DNA of 64,000 nucleotides from Candidatus Dormiibacterota bacterium (GTDB lineage Bacteria > Vulcanimicrobiota > Vulcanimicrobiia > Vulcanimicrobiales > Vulcanimicrobiaceae), in assembly GCA_035532835.1 (NCBI GenBank), contig DATKQG010000023.1, positions 62,001-126,000 on the forward strand. The letters are read 5' to 3'. The translations under genes and the position numbers were made by a program. Positions within the stretch are counted from its first letter, which is position 1, and the number at the start of each line of letters is the position of its first letter. The notes under the pieces are model-generated. The model did no database searches, was not told where the DNA came from, and saw only the letters and a list, made by a program, of their open reading frames with translations. Below, piece after piece: positions 12,115 through 20,061 of the stretch.

Positions 12115-13531
12115 CGGCCTCGCAACGATTGCGGTGGGTTTTTTGGGCGCGATCGCCTTGTTCGCGGCCTTTGCACTGCGGCCGTATCCGGCCACCGATT
12201 TCGGCATTTTCTACTGTGCCGGCCAAGCTGTTTCCGCTCACGCCGACCCGTATCGCGTAGAGCCGCTGCGAACGTGCGAACGAAGCGTCTGGGAGACCGG
12301 CTACCTCGAAGGCTACGCCGAGCCGGCCGCATCGCCCGGTTATGTCTTACCGATGTTTACGCTCCTCTCGCGGCTCCCGTTTGCGACGGCGAAGCTGCTC
12401 TGGCTGTTACTCCTGTGTGCGGCGTTCGGCAGCGCGGTCGTTTTGCTGACGAAACTCTCCGGATTGCGCCCGCTCGCCGTGTTCGCGCTCTGCATCGTGC
12501 CGGTGGGGCTGCTGAACGTTCGTCCGGGACAGATCGGCGGCATACTGCTCGCATGCGTTGCTGCAACGGCGTTCCTGCTGCGCACCGGCCGCGAGCGGTG
12601 GGCCGTCGTGCCCGCGCTCCTGGCGATGATCGAGCCGCACGTCGGCTTGCCCGTTGTGGTGAGCCTCGCGGTCTTCGCGCCGCGCGCGCGATGGCTGCTG
12701 GGCATCGGCATCGCAGGCCTGGCGGCCCTCCATTTCGCCGTCCTTGGCATATCGACCGGCATCGAATACGCTCGCGACCTCCTGCCCGCAATGGCGCACG
12801 CCGAACTGCTCGCGGCGGATCAATACGGAATGTCGTGGCTGTTGCATCAAGGCGGCCTCCCATCAAGCCTCGCATTGCCGATCGCAACGGTGCTCTACAT
12901 CGTCGCCATCGCGCTCGGGCTGGCTGCCGCCGCACGCGCGTGGAAACGTACCGGCGATGCCGCGTTGTGCGTAGCGATTCCGGTAAGCGTCGCGCTGCTG
13001 GCAACGCCGTTTCTGCACGATATCGAATTCTGCGTCGCACTCGTCGCGCCGCTGGCGGCGCTGGGGGCGACGGGCGGCGGGGTGCGTTGGCTTTGGCTCG
13101 CGGCAATCGTTGCGGTACCCTGGTATGCCTGCATCGGTGATAGCGTGCTGGGGGCTGCCTCGGTCGTAACGATCGCCCTCTTCGCGTTCTTTGCCGTGCG
13201 TCGCCCGTTGCTGCATAGCGCCGCGGCGGCGCTTGGAACGGCAGCCGGCTGCGCTATGGTGCTGCTCGCCTTACGCATACTTCCGCTGCATGCGGGCGCG
13301 ACCTTCGATCATGTCACGGTCGGCTCGCACGCGATCTCTGCGGCGAGCTGGGGTGCATTCTTGCGAGCCCATACGCTCTTGATCGCGTCGGGACCGCGCG
13401 TGCTCGTACCAAAGGCCGTTGCATGGGGAGCGCTTCTCGTCGGCGTGCTACTCGTCGTGCGTGAAAAGCCCGACAGGCTGGAAGTCCACCACATGTCGAT
13501 CCGATCGGAGGCGCCCCATGCACACGCGTAA
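12101..13531 (+). CDS. Multi-spanning membrane glycosyltransferase, GT87/DUF2029-like
   Basis: 476 residues from the GTG preferred here, which has GAGGGA 8 nt upstream and overlaps the previous gene by 14 nt. The pattern is that of DUF2029/GT87: DFGIFYCAGQAV in the first outer loop, SPGYVLPMFTLLSRLPF, and LNVRPGQIGGILL in the middle (the family's N..GQ.. motif). About ten membrane segments follow. Likely a polyprenyl-phosphate-sugar-dependent transferase completing the glycan made by this operon. Its last 14 bases overlap the start of the DsrE-like gene, whose Shine-Dalgarno sequence lies inside it. Confidence 0.7.
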   Translation: MLRRNGLATIAVGFLGAIALFAAFALRPYPATDFGIFYCAGQAVSAHADPYRVEPLRTCERSVWETGYLEGYAEPAASPGYVLPMFTLLSRLPFATAKLLWLLLLCAAFGSAVVLLTKLSGLRPLAVFALCIVPVGLLNVRPGQIGGILLACVAATAFLLRTGRERWAVVPALLAMIEPHVGLPVVVSLAVFAPRARWLLGIGIAGLAALHFAVLGISTGIEYARDLLPAMAHAELLAADQYGMSWLLHQGGLPSSLALPIATVLYIVAIALGLAAAARAWKRTGDAALCVAIPVSVALLATPFLHDIEFCVALVAPLAALGATGGGVRWLWLAAIVAVPWYACIGDSVLGAASVVTIALFAFFAVRRPLLHSAAAALGTAAGCAMVLLALRILPLHAGATFDHVTVGSHAISAASWGAFLRAHTLLIASGPRVLVPKAVAWGALLVGVLLVVREKPDRLEVHHMSIRSEAPHAHA

Positions 13532-14204
13532 ACATTTTCTGGCGGTCGCATCGCTGGCGGCGCTCGCGCCGCAGATCGCTGCCGCCGCACCACCTCCGCA
13601 ATCCGCAGCCGATCTCCACGAGGTGCTCCCAAAGCTGAAGTTCGACGTAGCCACGTTCGACGCGACGCTTTCGAAAGCGGCGGCGCATCGACACCTCTTC
13701 AGTGCGGTACCGCTCGATGGCGGAACGATCTTCGTCGCGATCCGGAACACGCTGGACGCCTATCGCGACTTCTTAGATGTCGGCTACGAGCAGATTCTGC
13801 CGGTCGCCGTACTCTACCACGGCGTTTCGATTGCGCTCGGATTCAACGACGCGGCCTGGAACGAGCTCTTCCTTCCGGCGATGGCGTCCTACCCGCCTGC
13901 CGTTCGTGCCGCATTCGCCGCGGCACGCCGCGGGGGCGGCAACCCCTATCTGCACGCGAAGCAAGCGCACGATTGGTCGCTCGGATCGCTGGTCGCCGAC
14001 TGCGGGCTGCGGACGTATATTTGCAACAACGCGATGCGCAGCTTCGCAACATCCGCGGCAAAGACGCTGCATACGACGCCGAGCGCAGTATATGCGCAGT
14101 TAACGGCAAACTTAGCGACCAACGCGATGGTCGTGCCGGCCGGCGTGTGGGCGATCCACGCACTTCAAGAGCGACACTTCACCCTGCTCGAAACGTCGGT
14201 CTGA
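13518..14204 (+). CDS. Secreted DsrE/DsrF-like protein
   Basis: 228 residues. An N-terminal signal peptide runs HTRKHFLAVASLAALAPQ to the AAAA region. The mature part has features of exported DsrE-like proteins: VAIRNTLDAYRDF, PVAVLYHGVSIALGFNDAAW, YICNNAM with a single cysteine at the position used by the family, and VVPAGVWAIHALQER near the end. DsrE-like domains bind or transfer sulfur species, but this secreted subgroup has no settled function. GGAGG sits 7 nt before the ATG. It may simply ride at the end of the glycan operon; nothing ties it to glycan synthesis. Confidence 0.7.
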   Translation: MHTRKHFLAVASLAALAPQIAAAAPPPQSAADLHEVLPKLKFDVATFDATLSKAAAHRHLFSAVPLDGGTIFVAIRNTLDAYRDFLDVGYEQILPVAVLYHGVSIALGFNDAAWNELFLPAMASYPPAVRAAFAAARRGGGNPYLHAKQAHDWSLGSLVADCGLRTYICNNAMRSFATSAAKTLHTTPSAVYAQLTANLATNAMVVPAGVWAIHALQERHFTLLETSV

Positions 14205-14248: not shown

Positions 14249-14276
14249 TTGACGCATTGGGGGCCAAGCTGTTAAT
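14249..14276 (+). promoter_or_regulatory. Candidate sigma-70 promoter of the thr leader-thrCB unit
   Basis: TTGACG (14249-14254) and GTTAAT (14271-14276) are separated by 16 nt. Transcription would start about 10 nt before the leader-peptide ATG, leaving a very short 5' end with GGAAG as its ribosome-binding site. Assigned by eye. Confidence 0.5.
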
Positions 14277-14288
14277 CTCGGAAGCACC

Positions 14289-14378
14289 ATGATGCTGTTT
14301 GCGTCCTCCGTGACGACGACGACCACGACGACTACCACCACTACGACTGGTGGGCGGTTCGGTGTTGGGTTGACGTAA
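14289..14378 (+). CDS. Threonine-operon leader peptide (12 consecutive Thr codons)
   Basis: A 29-codon reading frame: MMLFASSV, then twelve Thr codons in a row (14313-14348, mixed ACG, ACC and ACT), then GGRFGVGLT and TAA, so 13 Thr codons in all. GGAAG lies 5 nt before the first ATG. The frame ends 26 nt before a strong intrinsic terminator, and thrC begins 24 nt after the stem. This is the arrangement of ribosome-mediated attenuation: scarce charged Thr-tRNA stalls the ribosome on the Thr run and prevents terminator formation. Unlike the E. coli thr leader there are no Ile codons. Such a codon run directly ahead of thrC is very unlikely by chance. Confidence 0.88.
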   Translation: MMLFASSVTTTTTTTTTTTTGGRFGVGLT

Positions 14379-14404
14379 GAGCAGAGCAAGGTAAGCACTC
14401 GTAC

Positions 14405-14442
14405 GAGCCCCGCGCCGAATGGCGCGGGGCTCTTTGCATTTT
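14405..14442 (+). terminator. Attenuator terminator of the thrCB operon
   Basis: A perfect 12-bp stem: GAGCCCCGCGCC (14405-14416), tetraloop GAAT, GGCGCGGGGCTC (14421-14432), followed by TTTGCATTTT. It sits between the Thr leader peptide and thrC. A competing pairing is possible between GGTGTTGGG (14361-14369, the Gly-Val-Gly codons) and the 5' arm. CCACC in the Thr run can pair with GGTGG (14349-14353). These alternatives would make the terminator depend on ribosome position. Confidence 0.85.
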
Positions 14443-14459
14443 CTAGCCGGAGCACGACG

Positions 14460-15488
14460 ATGGAACGACGACTCGACCCCCTCGGATACAAACGCATCCT
14501 GCGCGAACGGCGCGCCTCGTACGAACCGCTCTTCGCGAGCGGCGTGTGGCGTTATCGCGAACTCTTGCCGCCGATCGACCCGGCGTCGATCGTCTCGCTC
14601 GCCGAAGGCAATATGCCGCTCTACGATGCGCCGAGCGGCGCTTCGTACGCGGGCGTCGATCGCCTCGCGTACCTGCATCTGGGCATGAACCCGACCGGCT
14701 CGTTCAAGGACCTCGGCATGACCGTCGCCGTCTCTGCCGCCAAAGCCGCCGGGATGCGCGGCGTCGTCGCCGCGAGTACCGGCAACACCGCCTCGTCGAT
14801 GGCCGCTTACGCGGCGCGCGCCGGACTGGAAGCACATGCGCTCGTACCTCGCGGCCGCGTAACGCAGGCCAAACTCGCGCAAATGCTCGAATACGGCGCG
14901 CGCATCGTAGAAGTGGAGGGATCGTTCGACGACGCTTTCGCGCAGCTTGATCGCATAGCCGACGGCGCGTTGCAGATCGTCAACTCCACCAACCCGTTCC
15001 GCCTCGAAGGCCAAAAGTGCGCCGCCTTCTCCATCCTCGAACAGCGCGGCTGGCACGTCCCCGATTGGGTCGTGCTTCCGGGCGGGAATCTCGGCAACAT
15101 CAGCGCGATCGGACGCGGCTTTCGCGAAGCGCTGGAATTGCGTTTGATCGATCGCCTGCCGCGCCTGGCGCTCGTTCGCGCCGACGCCGGCACCCAGACG
15201 CGCGCAACCGCCATCGCCGTCGGCAACCCGCAGTCGCGAGAGAAAGCGTCGCGAGAGTTGCGCGAGAGCGACGGCATCGAATTGGTCGCGAGTGACGAGG
15301 CGATCTTCGCGGCAAAGGCGCAGATCGGTCGCGAGGGGATCGGCTGCGAGCCCGCTTCCGCCGCATCGCTTGCGGGGTTGCGCATCCTGCGCGAGCAAGG
15401 CCGGGTCGCGCCCGACGCCGACGTCGTCGCCGTTCTCACCGGGCACGTGCTCAAGGACGTCGGCGCGGTGCAGCATGCCGCGGTTTGA
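14460..15488 (+). CDS. thrC: Threonine synthase
   Basis: 342 residues, a short PLP-dependent threonine synthase. It converts O-phospho-L-homoserine to threonine. NPTGSFKDLGM holds the PLP lysine, ASTGNTASSMAAYAARAG the phosphate-contact region, and LPGGNLGNISAIG the glycine loop binding PLP phosphate. SLAEGNMPLYDAP near residue 45 is the usual start of the catalytic core. GGAG lies about 7 nt before the ATG. It is the first enzyme gene after the Thr leader and attenuator, and it overlaps thrB by 14 nt. Confidence 0.95.
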   Translation: MERRLDPLGYKRILRERRASYEPLFASGVWRYRELLPPIDPASIVSLAEGNMPLYDAPSGASYAGVDRLAYLHLGMNPTGSFKDLGMTVAVSAAKAAGMRGVVAASTGNTASSMAAYAARAGLEAHALVPRGRVTQAKLAQMLEYGARIVEVEGSFDDAFAQLDRIADGALQIVNSTNPFRLEGQKCAAFSILEQRGWHVPDWVVLPGGNLGNISAIGRGFREALELRLIDRLPRLALVRADAGTQTRATAIAVGNPQSREKASRELRESDGIELVASDEAIFAAKAQIGREGIGCEPASAASLAGLRILREQGRVAPDADVVAVLTGHVLKDVGAVQHAAV

Positions 15489-16377
15489 CGCCTTTTCGCT
15501 GAGCGTCCCCGCGACGAGCGCGAACCTCGGGCCCGGTTTCGATGCCGTCGGCCTCGCGCTCGGTCTGCGCATTCGCGCGCAGGCCGCACCGGCGCGCCGC
15601 TTTGCGCTCGATTTCGTCGAGGGGCCGAACGCTCCCACGCACGACGGCTATCGCGATGCGATGCTTACCGCCATGCTGCGCGTCGTCCCGGAGCTGCCGC
15701 GCGCGCGCATCGTCGTCGACAACGCGATTCCGCTGGGTAAGGGCCTGGGTTCGAGCGCCGCGGCCGCGGTACTCGGTATCGCGATCGCCGCGCGCGCCGG
15801 TGGGATCGCACTCTCGCGCAACGACATCGCGCAGCACGTGTGTGCGATCGAAGGGCACCCCGACAACGCTTTGCCTGCCGTCTTTGGCGGGGCCGTTATC
15901 GCTGCGTCCGGCGATGCGCGGTCGTTCGTGCGCGTACGCACGATGGGCGCGTTGCGCGCGGTGCTTCTGGTGCCCGACTGCGCGCTCTCCACCGAGCAGG
16001 CTCGCGCGCTGCTGCCCGAGCGCTACGATCGCTGCGACGTCGTCTTCACCGCTCAGCGCGCCGCCCTGCTCGGCGCGGCGCTTGCGTCGGGCGAATGGGG
16101 CGCGCTCCGCGAGGCGATGCGCGATCGCCTCCATCAACCGTACCGCGCACCGCACATTCCCGGGCTCGCGCAAGCGCTCGATATCCGCTCGCGCTCGCTG
16201 CTCGGCGTCGCGCTCTCGGGCGCGGGCCCGAGCGTCATCGCGATGCTGCGCCGCGGCGCCGCCTGGGAAGGCATCGCCGCCCGCATCGCCGGTTGCTTCG
16301 AGGCAGCGGGCGTGGCCGTGCAGACGCTGCCCCTCGCGCTCGGCGCGCGGGGCCTCGCATACGGCCCCGGGGCTTGA
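15475..16377 (+). CDS. thrB: Homoserine kinase
   Basis: 300 residues, GHMP-kinase family. It phosphorylates homoserine to O-phosphohomoserine, the substrate of the upstream thrC product. VPATSANLGPGFDAVG is the N-terminal signature, PLGKGLGSSAAAAVLG the ATP-binding GHMP motif, and VALSGAGPSVIAML the C-terminal motif 3. The ATG overlaps the end of thrC; an earlier in-frame start would lie deep in thrC. The stop codon TGA is itself part of the candidate -35 hexamer for the next transcription unit. Confidence 0.94.
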   Translation: MPRFDAFSLSVPATSANLGPGFDAVGLALGLRIRAQAAPARRFALDFVEGPNAPTHDGYRDAMLTAMLRVVPELPRARIVVDNAIPLGKGLGSSAAAAVLGIAIAARAGGIALSRNDIAQHVCAIEGHPDNALPAVFGGAVIAASGDARSFVRVRTMGALRAVLLVPDCALSTEQARALLPERYDRCDVVFTAQRAALLGAALASGEWGALREAMRDRLHQPYRAPHIPGLAQALDIRSRSLLGVALSGAGPSVIAMLRRGAAWEGIAARIAGCFEAAGVAVQTLPLALGARGLAYGPGA

Positions 16378-16403
16378 CGCGATGTTTTCGCCCGTGGTAA
16401 GGT
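16374..16403 (+). promoter_or_regulatory. Candidate promoter of the hom-metY-metX unit
   Basis: TTGACG (16374-16379) overlaps the thrB stop. TAAGGT (16398-16403) lies 18 nt further on and is preceded by TGG, giving an extended -10 (TGnTAAGGT). The -35 hexamer is identical to that of the thr leader promoter. Transcription would start only a few bases before the leader-peptide ATG. Assigned by eye. Confidence 0.4.
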
Positions 16404-16410
16404 CGCTCCA

Positions 16411-16488
16411 ATGTTTACCCGCCCGACCACCATGATTTGTCCCATGTGCGGCATGCAAGAAGCATGCGGCGGGGATCGTCGTGCGTAG
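16411..16488 (+). CDS. Leader peptide rich in Met, Cys and Thr ahead of hom-metYX
   Basis: A 25-codon frame whose first 20 residues are MFTRPTTMICPMCGMQEACG, ending in TAG. It holds 4 Met, 3 Cys and 3 Thr codons. AAGG is 8 nt upstream of the ATG. It is followed by a 16-bp terminator and then by hom, metY and metX, whose end products are methionine and threonine precursors. CCCGCC (16418-16423) can pair with GGCGGG (16468-16473), and GGCGGGG (16468-16474) can instead pair with CCCCTCGCC in the terminator 5' arm with one bulged base. A ribosome stalled on Thr6-Thr7-Met8 would cover the first arm and favour antitermination. The coding claim rests on context and composition, not homology. Confidence 0.6.
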   Translation: MFTRPTTMICPMCGMQEACGGDRRA

Positions 16489-16523
16489 CGAACGGTAAGC
16501 AACACCAACAACCGAAAGCTTCT

Positions 16524-16566
16524 CACAACGCCCCTCGCCGATCAGGCGAGGGGCGTTGTGTTTTTT
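16524..16566 (+). terminator. Intrinsic terminator between leader peptide and hom
   Basis: A perfect 16-bp stem (CACAACGCCCCTCGCC at 16524-16539, loop GATCA, GGCGAGGGGCGTTGTG at 16545-16560) followed by six T. It could be the plain end of thrCB or the attenuator for hom. The preceding promoter and Met/Cys/Thr leader favour an attenuator. Confidence 0.92.
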
Positions 16567-16601: not shown

Positions 16602-17762
16602 ATGGAATTGAGCGTAGGCATCGGCCTACTCGGATGCGGAACGGTCGGCAGCAGCGTTGCCGAACGGCTCGTGCGCGAGCGCGATGCGATCGAGCGGCGC
16701 AGCGGCGTCCGTTTCCACCTGCGCGGCATCGCAATTCGCGACGAGGATAAGCTGCGTCCCGCCGGCGTCGAGACGCGGCTCTTCACCCGCGACGCTCGCG
16801 CCCTGGTCGAAGATCCGCACGTCGATCTCGTGATCGAGTGCATCGGCGGTACCGCCGACGCTGCCGACTTCGTCGAACGCGCCCTCGATCGCGGTCGCCA
16901 CGTGATTAGCGCCAACAAGGATCTCATCGCCACGCAAGGCCCCCGTTTACACGCGCTCGCCGCGCTGCGCGGCGTCGCCCTGCGCTACGAAGCCGCCGCC
17001 TGCGGCGCCATTCCGATCGTACGCACCCTTGCCGATGCGCTCGCGGGCGACGAGGTTCGCTCGCTGTGCGGCGTCGTCAACGGAACCTGCACGTATATTC
17101 TCTGCGCGATGGAAGAGGGCGCGAGTTACGACGAAGCACTGGCGGCCGCGCAAGCGGCAGGCTACGCCGAGGCCGATCCCGCCAACGACGTCGACGGTGT
17201 CGATGCCGCGCACAAACTCGCCCTTCTCGTGCAACTCGCGTTTGGCCTCGCGGTCATCTCGCCGCGCATCCGCCGCACTGGCATTGCCGGCATCGTCAAA
17301 CGCGATATCGCCCGCGCCAAGATGCTCGGCTATCGGCTGCGCCTGGTTGCAGCCGCGGTGCGCGTCGCCGACGGCGTGCATGCCGAGGTCGCGCCGGTCC
17401 TCGTGCGCGAGGATCATGCGTTCGCCAACCTGCGCGGGCCGGAGAACATCGTGCGCATCGTCTCGCGCGATGCGGGCGAACTCGTGCTACGCGGCGCGGG
17501 CGCGGGCGGTCCGGCTACCGCCTCGGCGATTCTGGGCGATCTGGTCGGCACGTTGCGCGCCGTCGGGGAGCGCCACGATTTGCTGCACCGCACGAGCGCG
17601 CGCGATTTCGCGCCCGCCATCGACGTGGCCCCGCTCTTCGAGCGCCTGCCGCGCCATTCAGAACTCCCGCGCTACGCGCGTTGGGATGAATCACTCCTAG
17701 AAGCTCCGGCCTCGCAAGCCTCGCTTGCGTTCGCATGGCCGGGAGAGGATGCACTTCCATGA
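16602..17762 (+). CDS. hom: Homoserine dehydrogenase (without ACT domain)
   Basis: 386 residues. It reduces aspartate semialdehyde to homoserine, the branch point to Thr and Met. [17 protein letters not shown] is the NAD(P) site, [10 protein letters not shown] the strand before the catalytic domain, and [11 protein letters not shown] plus [18 protein letters not shown] the dimerisation and catalytic segments. After ~residue 345 it ends in [19 protein letters not shown] without the C-terminal ACT regulatory domain of the longer enzymes, so Thr feedback at protein level may be missing. GGAGG lies upstream of the ATG. ATGA overlap with metY. Confidence 0.94.
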
Positions 17763-19054
17763 GCACGACCCTAGAGAACGCTGCGGCTCCGCAGCACTTC
17801 GACACCATTGCCATCCACGGCGGCCATTCGGGCGATCCGTCCACCAAAGCGCGCGCGGTGCCGATCTATCAAACCACCTCGTATCTCTTCGACTCAACCG
17901 AGCACGCGGGCAAGCTCTTCGCGCTTGAAGAGTTCGGCAACATCTACACCCGTATCAATAATCCCACGACCGATGTGCTCGAGCAACGTATCGCCGCGCT
18001 CGAAGGCGGCGCTGCGGCCCTCGCGGTCGCGAGCGGCCAAGCTGCGGTCGTCTATGCGATTCTCAACCTCGCCAAAGTCGGCGATCACATCGTCAGCTCC
18101 ACCTCGCTCTACGGTGGAACGTATAATGTATTTGCGCACACCCTCAAACGCTTCGGCATCGAGACGAGCCTGGTCGATTTTAACGATCCGTTCGCGGTCG
18201 AAGCCGCGATCAAGCCCAACACCAAGGCAATCTTCGCGGAGACCATCGGCAACCCGAAGATCGACGTACTCGATATCGAAACGTACGCGGATCTCGCGCA
18301 CCGTCACGGCCTGCCGCTCATCGTCGATAATACGCTGGCCACGCCGTACCTGCTGCGACCGATCGACTTCGGCGCCGATATCGTCGTGCACTCGGCGACC
18401 AAGTTCATCGGCGGCCACGGCACCGCGATCGGCGGCGTGATCGTCGACGGCGGCACGTTCGATTGGGCCGCAAGCGGCCGCTTTCCGGAATTCACGGAAC
18501 CGGATCCGTCGTATCATGGGCTGCAGTATTGGCAAGCCTTCGGCAACATCGCGTATATTCTCAAGGCTCGCGTGCAATTGCTGCGGGATATCGGCGCCGC
18601 GATCTCGCCGTTTAATGCGTGGCTGTTGCTGCAAGGCCTCGAGACGCTCGGCATCCGCATCGAACGCCACAGCCACAACGCGCTCGCGGTAGCCGAGTTT
18701 CTGGCAGCACATCCGCGCGTCGAATCGGTTTCGTATCCCGGCCTCAAGAGCGACCCGGCGTACGAGCGCGCGCAACAATACCTTCCGAAGGGCGCGAGCG
18801 CGATTCTCACGTTCCGCGTCAATGGCGACGCAACCGATGCCAAACGCATCATCGATAAGCTCAAGCTCTTCTCGCTGCTGGCGAACGTCGGCGATGCCAA
18901 GTCCCTGGTAATCCACCCGGCCAGCACCACGCATCAGCAACTCTCGCCGAGCGAGCAGCGCGCGAGCGGCGTTGAGGAATCCACCATTCGCCTCTCGGTC
19001 GGCATCGAAGATAGCCGGGACATCATCGCGGACCTCGAACAAGCCCTCGCGTGA
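17759..19054 (+). CDS. metY: O-acetylhomoserine sulfhydrylase/aminocarboxypropyltransferase
   Basis: 431 residues, the normal length for MetY. It makes homocysteine from O-acetylhomoserine and sulfide with [24 protein letters not shown] is the N-terminal family signature in shortened form (YTRINNPT), and [14 protein letters not shown] holds the PLP lysine. [20 protein letters not shown] closes the protein. It is sandwiched between hom and metX with 4-nt overlaps on both sides, so homoserine supply, acetylation and sulfhydrylation are made together. Confidence 0.94.
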
Positions 19055-20061
19055 CCACTTCCTCCGGCGCTACGTCGATCGACGAACGCACGATCGCTAT
19101 CGGCTCGCTTCAACTCGACGGCGGAACCACGCTTCCGTCCGTCGAGCAGCGCGTGACGATCTATGGTACGCCCAACGCCGGCGCATCGAACGTCGTCCTG
19201 GTTCCGCACGCGCTCACCGGCTCCAGCCGCGCCGCCGATTGGTGGCCCGGCATCGTCGGCGAGGGAGCCCTGTACGATCCGCAACGATGGTGCGTCGTCG
19301 GCATCAACGCCCTCGGGAGCTGCTACGGCTCGACCGGCCCGGGCAACCGCGCCGATTTTCCGCGCATCACCGTTCGCGACATCGTCCGGGCACAGCGAGC
19401 GACGTTGTCGCAACTCGGCATCGAGCACCTCGCCGTCGTCATCGGCGGTTCCCTCGGCGGCATGCAAGCCTTGCAATGGGCGATCGACGCGCCCGAACGC
19501 GTGGAGCAGGCGGTCGTCGTCGGCGCACACGATCACCACTCCGCCATGGGCATCGCTCTCAACGCCATTCAACGCGAGTGTCTAGCGCTCGATCCCGTTC
19601 GAGGCTTACGCATCGCGCGCAAGCTCGCGATGCTCACGTATAAATCCGAAGCACTGCTCAACGAGCGCCACGGACGCAAGCCGGACCGCAACGATCCCTC
19701 GCGTTTCGATATAGAAGGCTATCTCGAACTGCAGGCCGACCGCTTCACCTCGCGCATGGACGCCGCAAGCTACGCAACCCTCACGCATGCCATGGACAGT
19801 TTCGACGTACGGCTCGACGACTCGTCGTCGTATGGCGGCAACGGCCACGTGGCCGACACATCGGCGTTGCCGAAGATCACCTTCGTCGGCATATCATCCG
19901 ACTGGCTCTTCCGCCCGCAGGACGTTCGCGACGCCGCCGCCCGCCTCGCACGGCGCGGCTACCCGGCGCGCTATACCGAGCTCGACAGCCCGCACGGCCA
20001 CGACGCCTTCCTCGCCGAACCGCACGCCCTATCGGCCCAGTTACACGCTGCGATCGGTTAG
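19051..20061 (+). CDS. metX: Homoserine O-acetyltransferase
   Basis: 336 residues of the alpha/beta-hydrolase fold. [10 protein letters not shown] is the oxyanion-side motif, [13 protein letters not shown] holds the nucleophile serine, ISSDWLFRP the aspartate, and DSPHGHDAF the histidine. [12 protein letters not shown] is the family-specific loop. It activates homoserine for MetY. The start is GTG in a GTGA overlap with metY. Its stop codon overlaps that of the convergent DUF5916-type gene, so no dedicated terminator separates the two convergent units. Confidence 0.93.

Follow-up and report, generated by a model that had tools for sequence, protein, structure and literature searches.

The thrC-thrB genes of the bacterium analysed here, a member of Candidatus Eremiobacterota (source genome G000), are very probably controlled by a classical ribosome-mediated transcription attenuator that responds to threonine. 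Our reading is built on the anatomy of the locus, its conservation and predicted RNA folds, from which we infer the transcription start site, the stalling of the ribosome and the response to threonine. Within the window (the whole 64-kb stretch of G000 that was analysed), the element lies on the forward strand directly ahead of thrC (threonine synthase, 14460–15488; TIGR00260, 225.6 bits, cut-off 167.1) and thrB (homoserine kinase, 15484–16377; TIGR00191, 196.4 bits, cut-off 168.25), both of which were assigned above curated NCBIfam cut-offs.

Anatomy of the threonine leader

A leader ORF of 29 codons (MMLFASSVTTTTTTTTTTTTGGRFGVGLT, 14289–14378) encodes the peptide MMLFASSV-T12-GGRFGVGLT and ends at a stop codon at 14376. 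Its regulatory codons, 12 consecutive Thr codons at 14313–14348, match the threonine branch encoded by the genes that follow, and Ile is absent. A search for (ACN)7 in the 2.89-Mb genome returned six matches, all overlapping registers of this one run, with none elsewhere in the genome and none on its other strand. The leader uses the Thr codons ACG, ACC and ACT; ACT makes up 3 of its 13 Thr codons versus 3 of 78 in the five downstream genes, a small sample. Between the leader ORF and thrC, as expected of an attenuator, lies an intrinsic terminator (14405–14432) with a perfect 12-bp stem, GAGCCCCGCGCC-GAAT-GGCGCGGGGCTC, GAAT forming the loop, and a T-rich tail that extends to ~14442. It was the strongest among four terminator-like sites found in 2 kb of scanned sequence.

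Upstream of the leader, a –35 element (TTGACG, 14249–14254) and a –10 element (TAATCT, 14273–14278) are separated by an 18-nt spacer. This promoter is missed by a strict consensus scan and was found when both strands were scanned mechanically for TTGAC, TAnnnT 16–20 nt further on, a short ORF after another 5–13 nt, and a terminator. The scan recovered exactly two places in the 64-kb window, the Thr leader and a Met/Cys leader at 16374–16560 (discussed below), and returned zero matches in two control sequences. In eight of eight sequences inspected, TTGAC is kept ~40 nt and the TAnnnT element ~9–10 nt 5' of the leader ATG, so that only a few bases would precede the ORF at the 5' end of the RNA. 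Transcription is thus expected to start ~1–4 nt before the ATG, making the ORF near-leaderless. The sequence-only reading had described a 29-codon, Ile-free leader with twelve Thr codons between a plausible promoter and a perfect 12-bp terminator directly ahead of thrC-thrB, and each of these elements is borne out.

Predicted RNA switch

Three pairing segments follow from this anatomy. The segment ACCACCAC within the Thr codons (14334–14341; region 1) is invariant in eight genomes, and its CACC can pair with GGTG in region 2, the 5' strand of the antiterminator (CGGTGTTGGGTT, 14360–14371). The inner helix and 3' strand of the antiterminator (14374–14417) end in the terminator 5' arm (region 3) and fold in all eight sequences. 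The antiterminator motif CGGTGTnGGGTT, which pairs with the terminator 5' arm, is identical bar one base in eight of eight aligned genomes, while much of its surroundings differs. G000, G001 and G092 read it in frame 2 (FGVGL), and G010, G030, G033, G095 and G096 in frame 0 (RCRV); preservation of the motif across this change of frame directly indicates selection on the RNA and not the peptide. The frame-shifted antiterminator offers a clean demonstration of that distinction.

Since alignment A5 misaligned the inner helix, the antiterminator was judged by single-sequence folds, which speak to the conserved fold and make no claim of statistical covariation. In eight such folds, the antiterminator hairpin ranged from –21.6 to –27.3 kcal/mol versus –21.9 to –28.6 kcal/mol for the terminator. 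Compared with shuffled sequences, the antiterminator energy was marginal in G000 (5.7% of shuffles were as good) and stood out in the other seven genomes (0–2%).

To represent the nascent RNA, we ended the transcript at the terminator 5' arm and masked ~32 nt (an assumed footprint) as the ribosome. With Thr codon 1, 4, 6, 9 or 12 in the A site, the predicted probability of the antiterminator was 0.97–1.0; it fell to 0.0 with the ribosome at the stop codon and was 0.20 with no ribosome. A stalled ribosome is therefore predicted to permit the antiterminator, and one at the stop codon to block it through the shared 5' arm. For the complete transcript at equilibrium, the terminator won in every case, indicating that the decision must be kinetic (by trapping), as in known attenuators. 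These calculations agree with earlier proposals that ribosome position could choose the fold and that GGTGTTGGG pairs with the terminator 5' arm. A further proposed pairing, CCACC with GGTGG in the Gly-Gly codons, is confined to the genus of G000, as it depends on an insertion seen only in G000 and G001; the pairing conserved in eight genomes is CACC:GGTG, between the Thr codons and CGGTGT of the motif.

In the mechanism that we propose, RNA polymerase would start just 5' of the leader ATG and a ribosome would load onto the near-leaderless RNA to translate the Thr leader. A shortage of charged Thr-tRNA would stall the ribosome in the Thr run, where it would block region 1 and leave CGGTGTTGGGTT (region 2) free to capture the nascent terminator 5' arm (region 3), and thrC-thrB would be transcribed. 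With ample Thr-tRNA, the ribosome would reach the stop codon and cover region 2, allowing the terminator (3:4) to form. Where no ribosome is present, the 1:2 pairing would compete with the antiterminator.

Conservation among relatives

Nine genomes of the family (G000, G001, G010, G030, G033, G060, G092, G095 and G096) carry a Thr leader and terminator directly 5' of thrC, G010 having fewer Thr codons than the others. G001 belongs to the same genus as G000 (record DAHUXY010000234.1, Candidatus Eremiobacterota bacterium, locus L068), and the leader peptides of other relatives include MISMFVSTTTTTTTTTTVVRCRVDVG (G030) and MTIFGLAATTTTTTTTLRAFGVGLM (G092). Comparison of the regions upstream of thrC, a check named in the sequence-only reading, found that relatives keep the Thr-rich ORF, the antiterminator and the terminator, whose stem carries compensatory changes (exchanges between A-U and G-C at two pairs). 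Both the codon run and the alternative structures are thus conserved. In a sister family of the same order (G037–G039), the leader upstream of thrC mixes Thr with Ile (IITTTTTITRGFGLWAGAALQ), and in genus g8, where thrC is located elsewhere, a Thr/Ile/Met leader (MSALCVMMTTTITTTTTLGEGRSGSTSA) lies 5' of hom. The Thr-only run that had been contrasted with enterobacterial leaders is present here but is a lineage-specific feature, since the leaders of other genera and of the sister family are mixed runs, either Thr/Ile or Thr/Met.

When 149 genomes of the phylum were searched with an RNA model of the Thr leader, 19 gave a match at E ≤ 1e-6, and only one of these lies outside the family; since two of the 19 (G014 and G024) carry Ile/Leu/Val leaders 5' of ilvB, the 19 matches do not equal the number of Thr leaders. 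In many family members with thrC elsewhere, no leader stands directly ahead of thrC. Among 80 thrC loci from genome contigs, many of them from Acidobacteriota, the scan that we used found no such leader outside Eremiobacterota; a Thr/Met-rich short ORF 5' of thrC in an Anaerolineae locus (L090) was rejected because it proved to be an acidic C-terminal tail read out of frame. Separately, one locus (L222/L165, G048:C48:4821-4946) carries a Thr/Ile-rich short ORF, MITATMPTTITTIIE, and a terminator with no recognised amino-acid gene downstream.

Alternative explanations

Because an upstream ORF (13419–14204) on the same strand ends 200 nt before the hairpin at 14405–14432, the hairpin might merely terminate that gene, the Thr-codon ORF being incidental. 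However, a promoter, a Thr-rich ORF and an antiterminator, conserved in several genera, all lie between that gene and the hairpin, and a Thr run unique in the genome is hard to reconcile with an incidental ORF; we regard this explanation as very improbable. Only slightly less improbable is that the leader is translated and the ribosome stalls, with control exerted through thrC translation or Rho in place of the intrinsic terminator. Terminators are absent from some leader peptides of Actinobacteria, which may work in another way (PMC1262725), yet every leader copy compared in this family is followed by a strong terminator, and the competing antiterminator is conserved.

A riboswitch that senses a metabolite or tRNA, or a T-box, would share the terminator/antiterminator layout, and nothing more in our data recommends it. 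An Rfam scan of the whole window returned no family at its cut-off, T-boxes and known riboswitches included; the two best weak matches were leader-peptide attenuators, and outside the switch itself the conserved part is the codon run. A sensor of this kind in place of the ribosome is the least probable reading that we considered.

Comparison with known attenuators

By its anatomy, the element is a conserved threonine attenuator that would work like that of E. coli. It shares with the thr attenuator of E. coli and other gammaproteobacteria (thrL, RF00506) a short Thr-rich leader ORF, competing terminator and antiterminator, and an operon of the threonine branch. The E. coli thr leader mixes Thr and Ile codons, whereas the run described here is Thr-only and its ORF near-leaderless; the present element also belongs to another phylum, has thrC as its first gene and lies in a cluster that lacks aspartate kinase. 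The Rfam Thr_leader model (RF00506) scored 26.1 bits against a gathering cut-off of 55, and Leu_leader (RF00512) scored slightly better (26.8 bits), so these scores do not establish homology and leave analogy equally likely; the sequence is too short to tell whether the element shares an ancestor with that of E. coli.

Most descriptions of leader-peptide attenuation come from Proteobacteria and Actinobacteria, plus one case in Bacilli (PMC2965389, PMC3766115); in 2010, leader peptides were known only from the first two groups and the Bacilli case of that paper itself (PMC2965389). A gammaproteobacterial origin, with very few transfers, has been suggested for the amino-acid attenuators in Rfam (PMC3766115). 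Leaderless leader peptides are known from Streptomyces lividans (trpL, ilvL and leuL; PMC8079986) and from ilvB of Corynebacterium diphtheriae (PMC5784534), and in these, as expected here, the ORF begins at the transcription start or right beside it. S. lividans candidates also include thrL 5' of thrS and metL 5' of metNIQ, neither with a clear intrinsic terminator (PMC8079986), so that a leader containing Met/Cys codons has been proposed there too, while an earlier survey of Actinobacteria reported no RNA element for threonine or methionine operons (PMC1262725). In contrast to the actinobacterial targets (thrS and a transporter), thrC-thrB and hom-metY-metX are each preceded here by a leader and a terminator, and the Thr element also has a conserved antiterminator. 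In the literature searched, which took in only a minority of subscription papers, we found no link between Eremiobacterota and leader-peptide attenuation.

A putative Met/Cys attenuator next to the threonine element

The second place recovered by the mechanical scan lies between thrB and hom on the forward strand. Its promoter (TTGAC ... TAAGGT, 16374–16403) overlaps the thrB stop codon and is followed by a leader ORF with Met/Cys codons (MFTRPTTMICPMCGMQEACGGDRRA, 16411–16488), a strong terminator (16524–16560) and, at 16602–20061, hom, metY and metX, which encode homoserine dehydrogenase and methionine-branch genes (metY and metX being assigned by best family matches). The Met/Cys and Thr attenuators stand in tandem in seven of the seven loci that cover both (G000, G001, G010, G030, G033, G092 and G095). 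Relatives encode Met/Cys leaders such as MFATTTAMMCSMCRMQMRTAWVVMESTV and similar peptides, and the Met codons fall within a conserved hairpin that carries some compensatory changes.

An RNA model of this leader (R2), which matches its counterparts in relatives, also matched in many further genomes. Among 22 further loci at E ≤ 2e-8, the gene directly downstream was hom in 18 and metY in four; hom, metY and ilvB in relatives were assigned by tblastn. Weaker matches preceded, in G002, a cystathionine-gamma-synthase-like gene and, in G060, an ABC-transporter binding-protein-like gene. At locus L227, a Met/Cys leader, MSNLHIMCHMCPVPAPDRRRLASRISK, with a terminator lies 5' of an ABC-transporter binding-protein-like gene, possibly for a sulfur source. 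The wider attenuator set, and the neighbouring Met/Cys element in particular, is more unusual than the threonine attenuator, and we found no full leader-peptide attenuator for methionine biosynthesis in the literature searched. The Met/Cys leader points to codon reading as a further way of controlling methionine biosynthesis, beside the SAM riboswitches or repressors usually described.

Other leaders and a shared design

Targeted searches of the source genome, which yield a partial list, revealed further leaders; trpE was assigned by a family scan, and the other genes are named here and in relatives from sequence reading. An Ile/Leu/Val-rich leader, MFAHNLVLVVVILISRSATDRYGLATA, with a terminator lies outside the window, 5' of an ilvB-like (acetolactate synthase-like) gene (L208, G000:C23:15590-15733). 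On the reverse strand at L228, Trp-rich leaders precede trpE (MIVRLAAWYRWHWLLGVQR, with a hairpin) and a DAHP-synthase-like gene (MTTTQTARWWWHLTAEIAGEARVLLSWSE). With leaders for these pathways in the same genome, attenuation looks general there; leuA of the source genome has a terminator and no evident leader. In relatives, leaders occur 5' of leuA-like (LLLLALAL, G030), ilvC-like (G116) and aroA-like genes (e.g., FWYRSYYGY in G116; also G112, G008 and G117). The Ilv, Leu, Trp and aromatic leaders are mostly near-leaderless ORFs.

We lean towards the view that one family of Eremiobacterota has many amino-acid pathways under a single attenuator design, composed of a near-leaderless ORF, an antiterminator conserved as RNA and an exchangeable codon cassette, and including a Met/Cys attenuator 5' of hom-metY-metX or metY in tandem with the Thr one. 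If this is true, the two homoserine branches would be sensed separately within one gene cluster. The regulatory codons predict the amino acid to which each operon answers. A conserved attenuator set in a distant, uncultured phylum also suggests that the mechanism is either much older, or much easier to evolve, than assumed. One leader type may have arisen from another through swapping of codon runs.

Two further observations concern these other leaders. In genus g8, aromatic leaders such as MRASFWYRSYYGYTEPVSVELGVA lie 5' of aroA-like genes (L212, L213, L218 and L219). At L166 and L167, ilvB leaders align with the entire length of the Thr-leader RNA model (E ~1e-7), and the antiterminator region of L167 resembles CGGTGTAGGGTTG.
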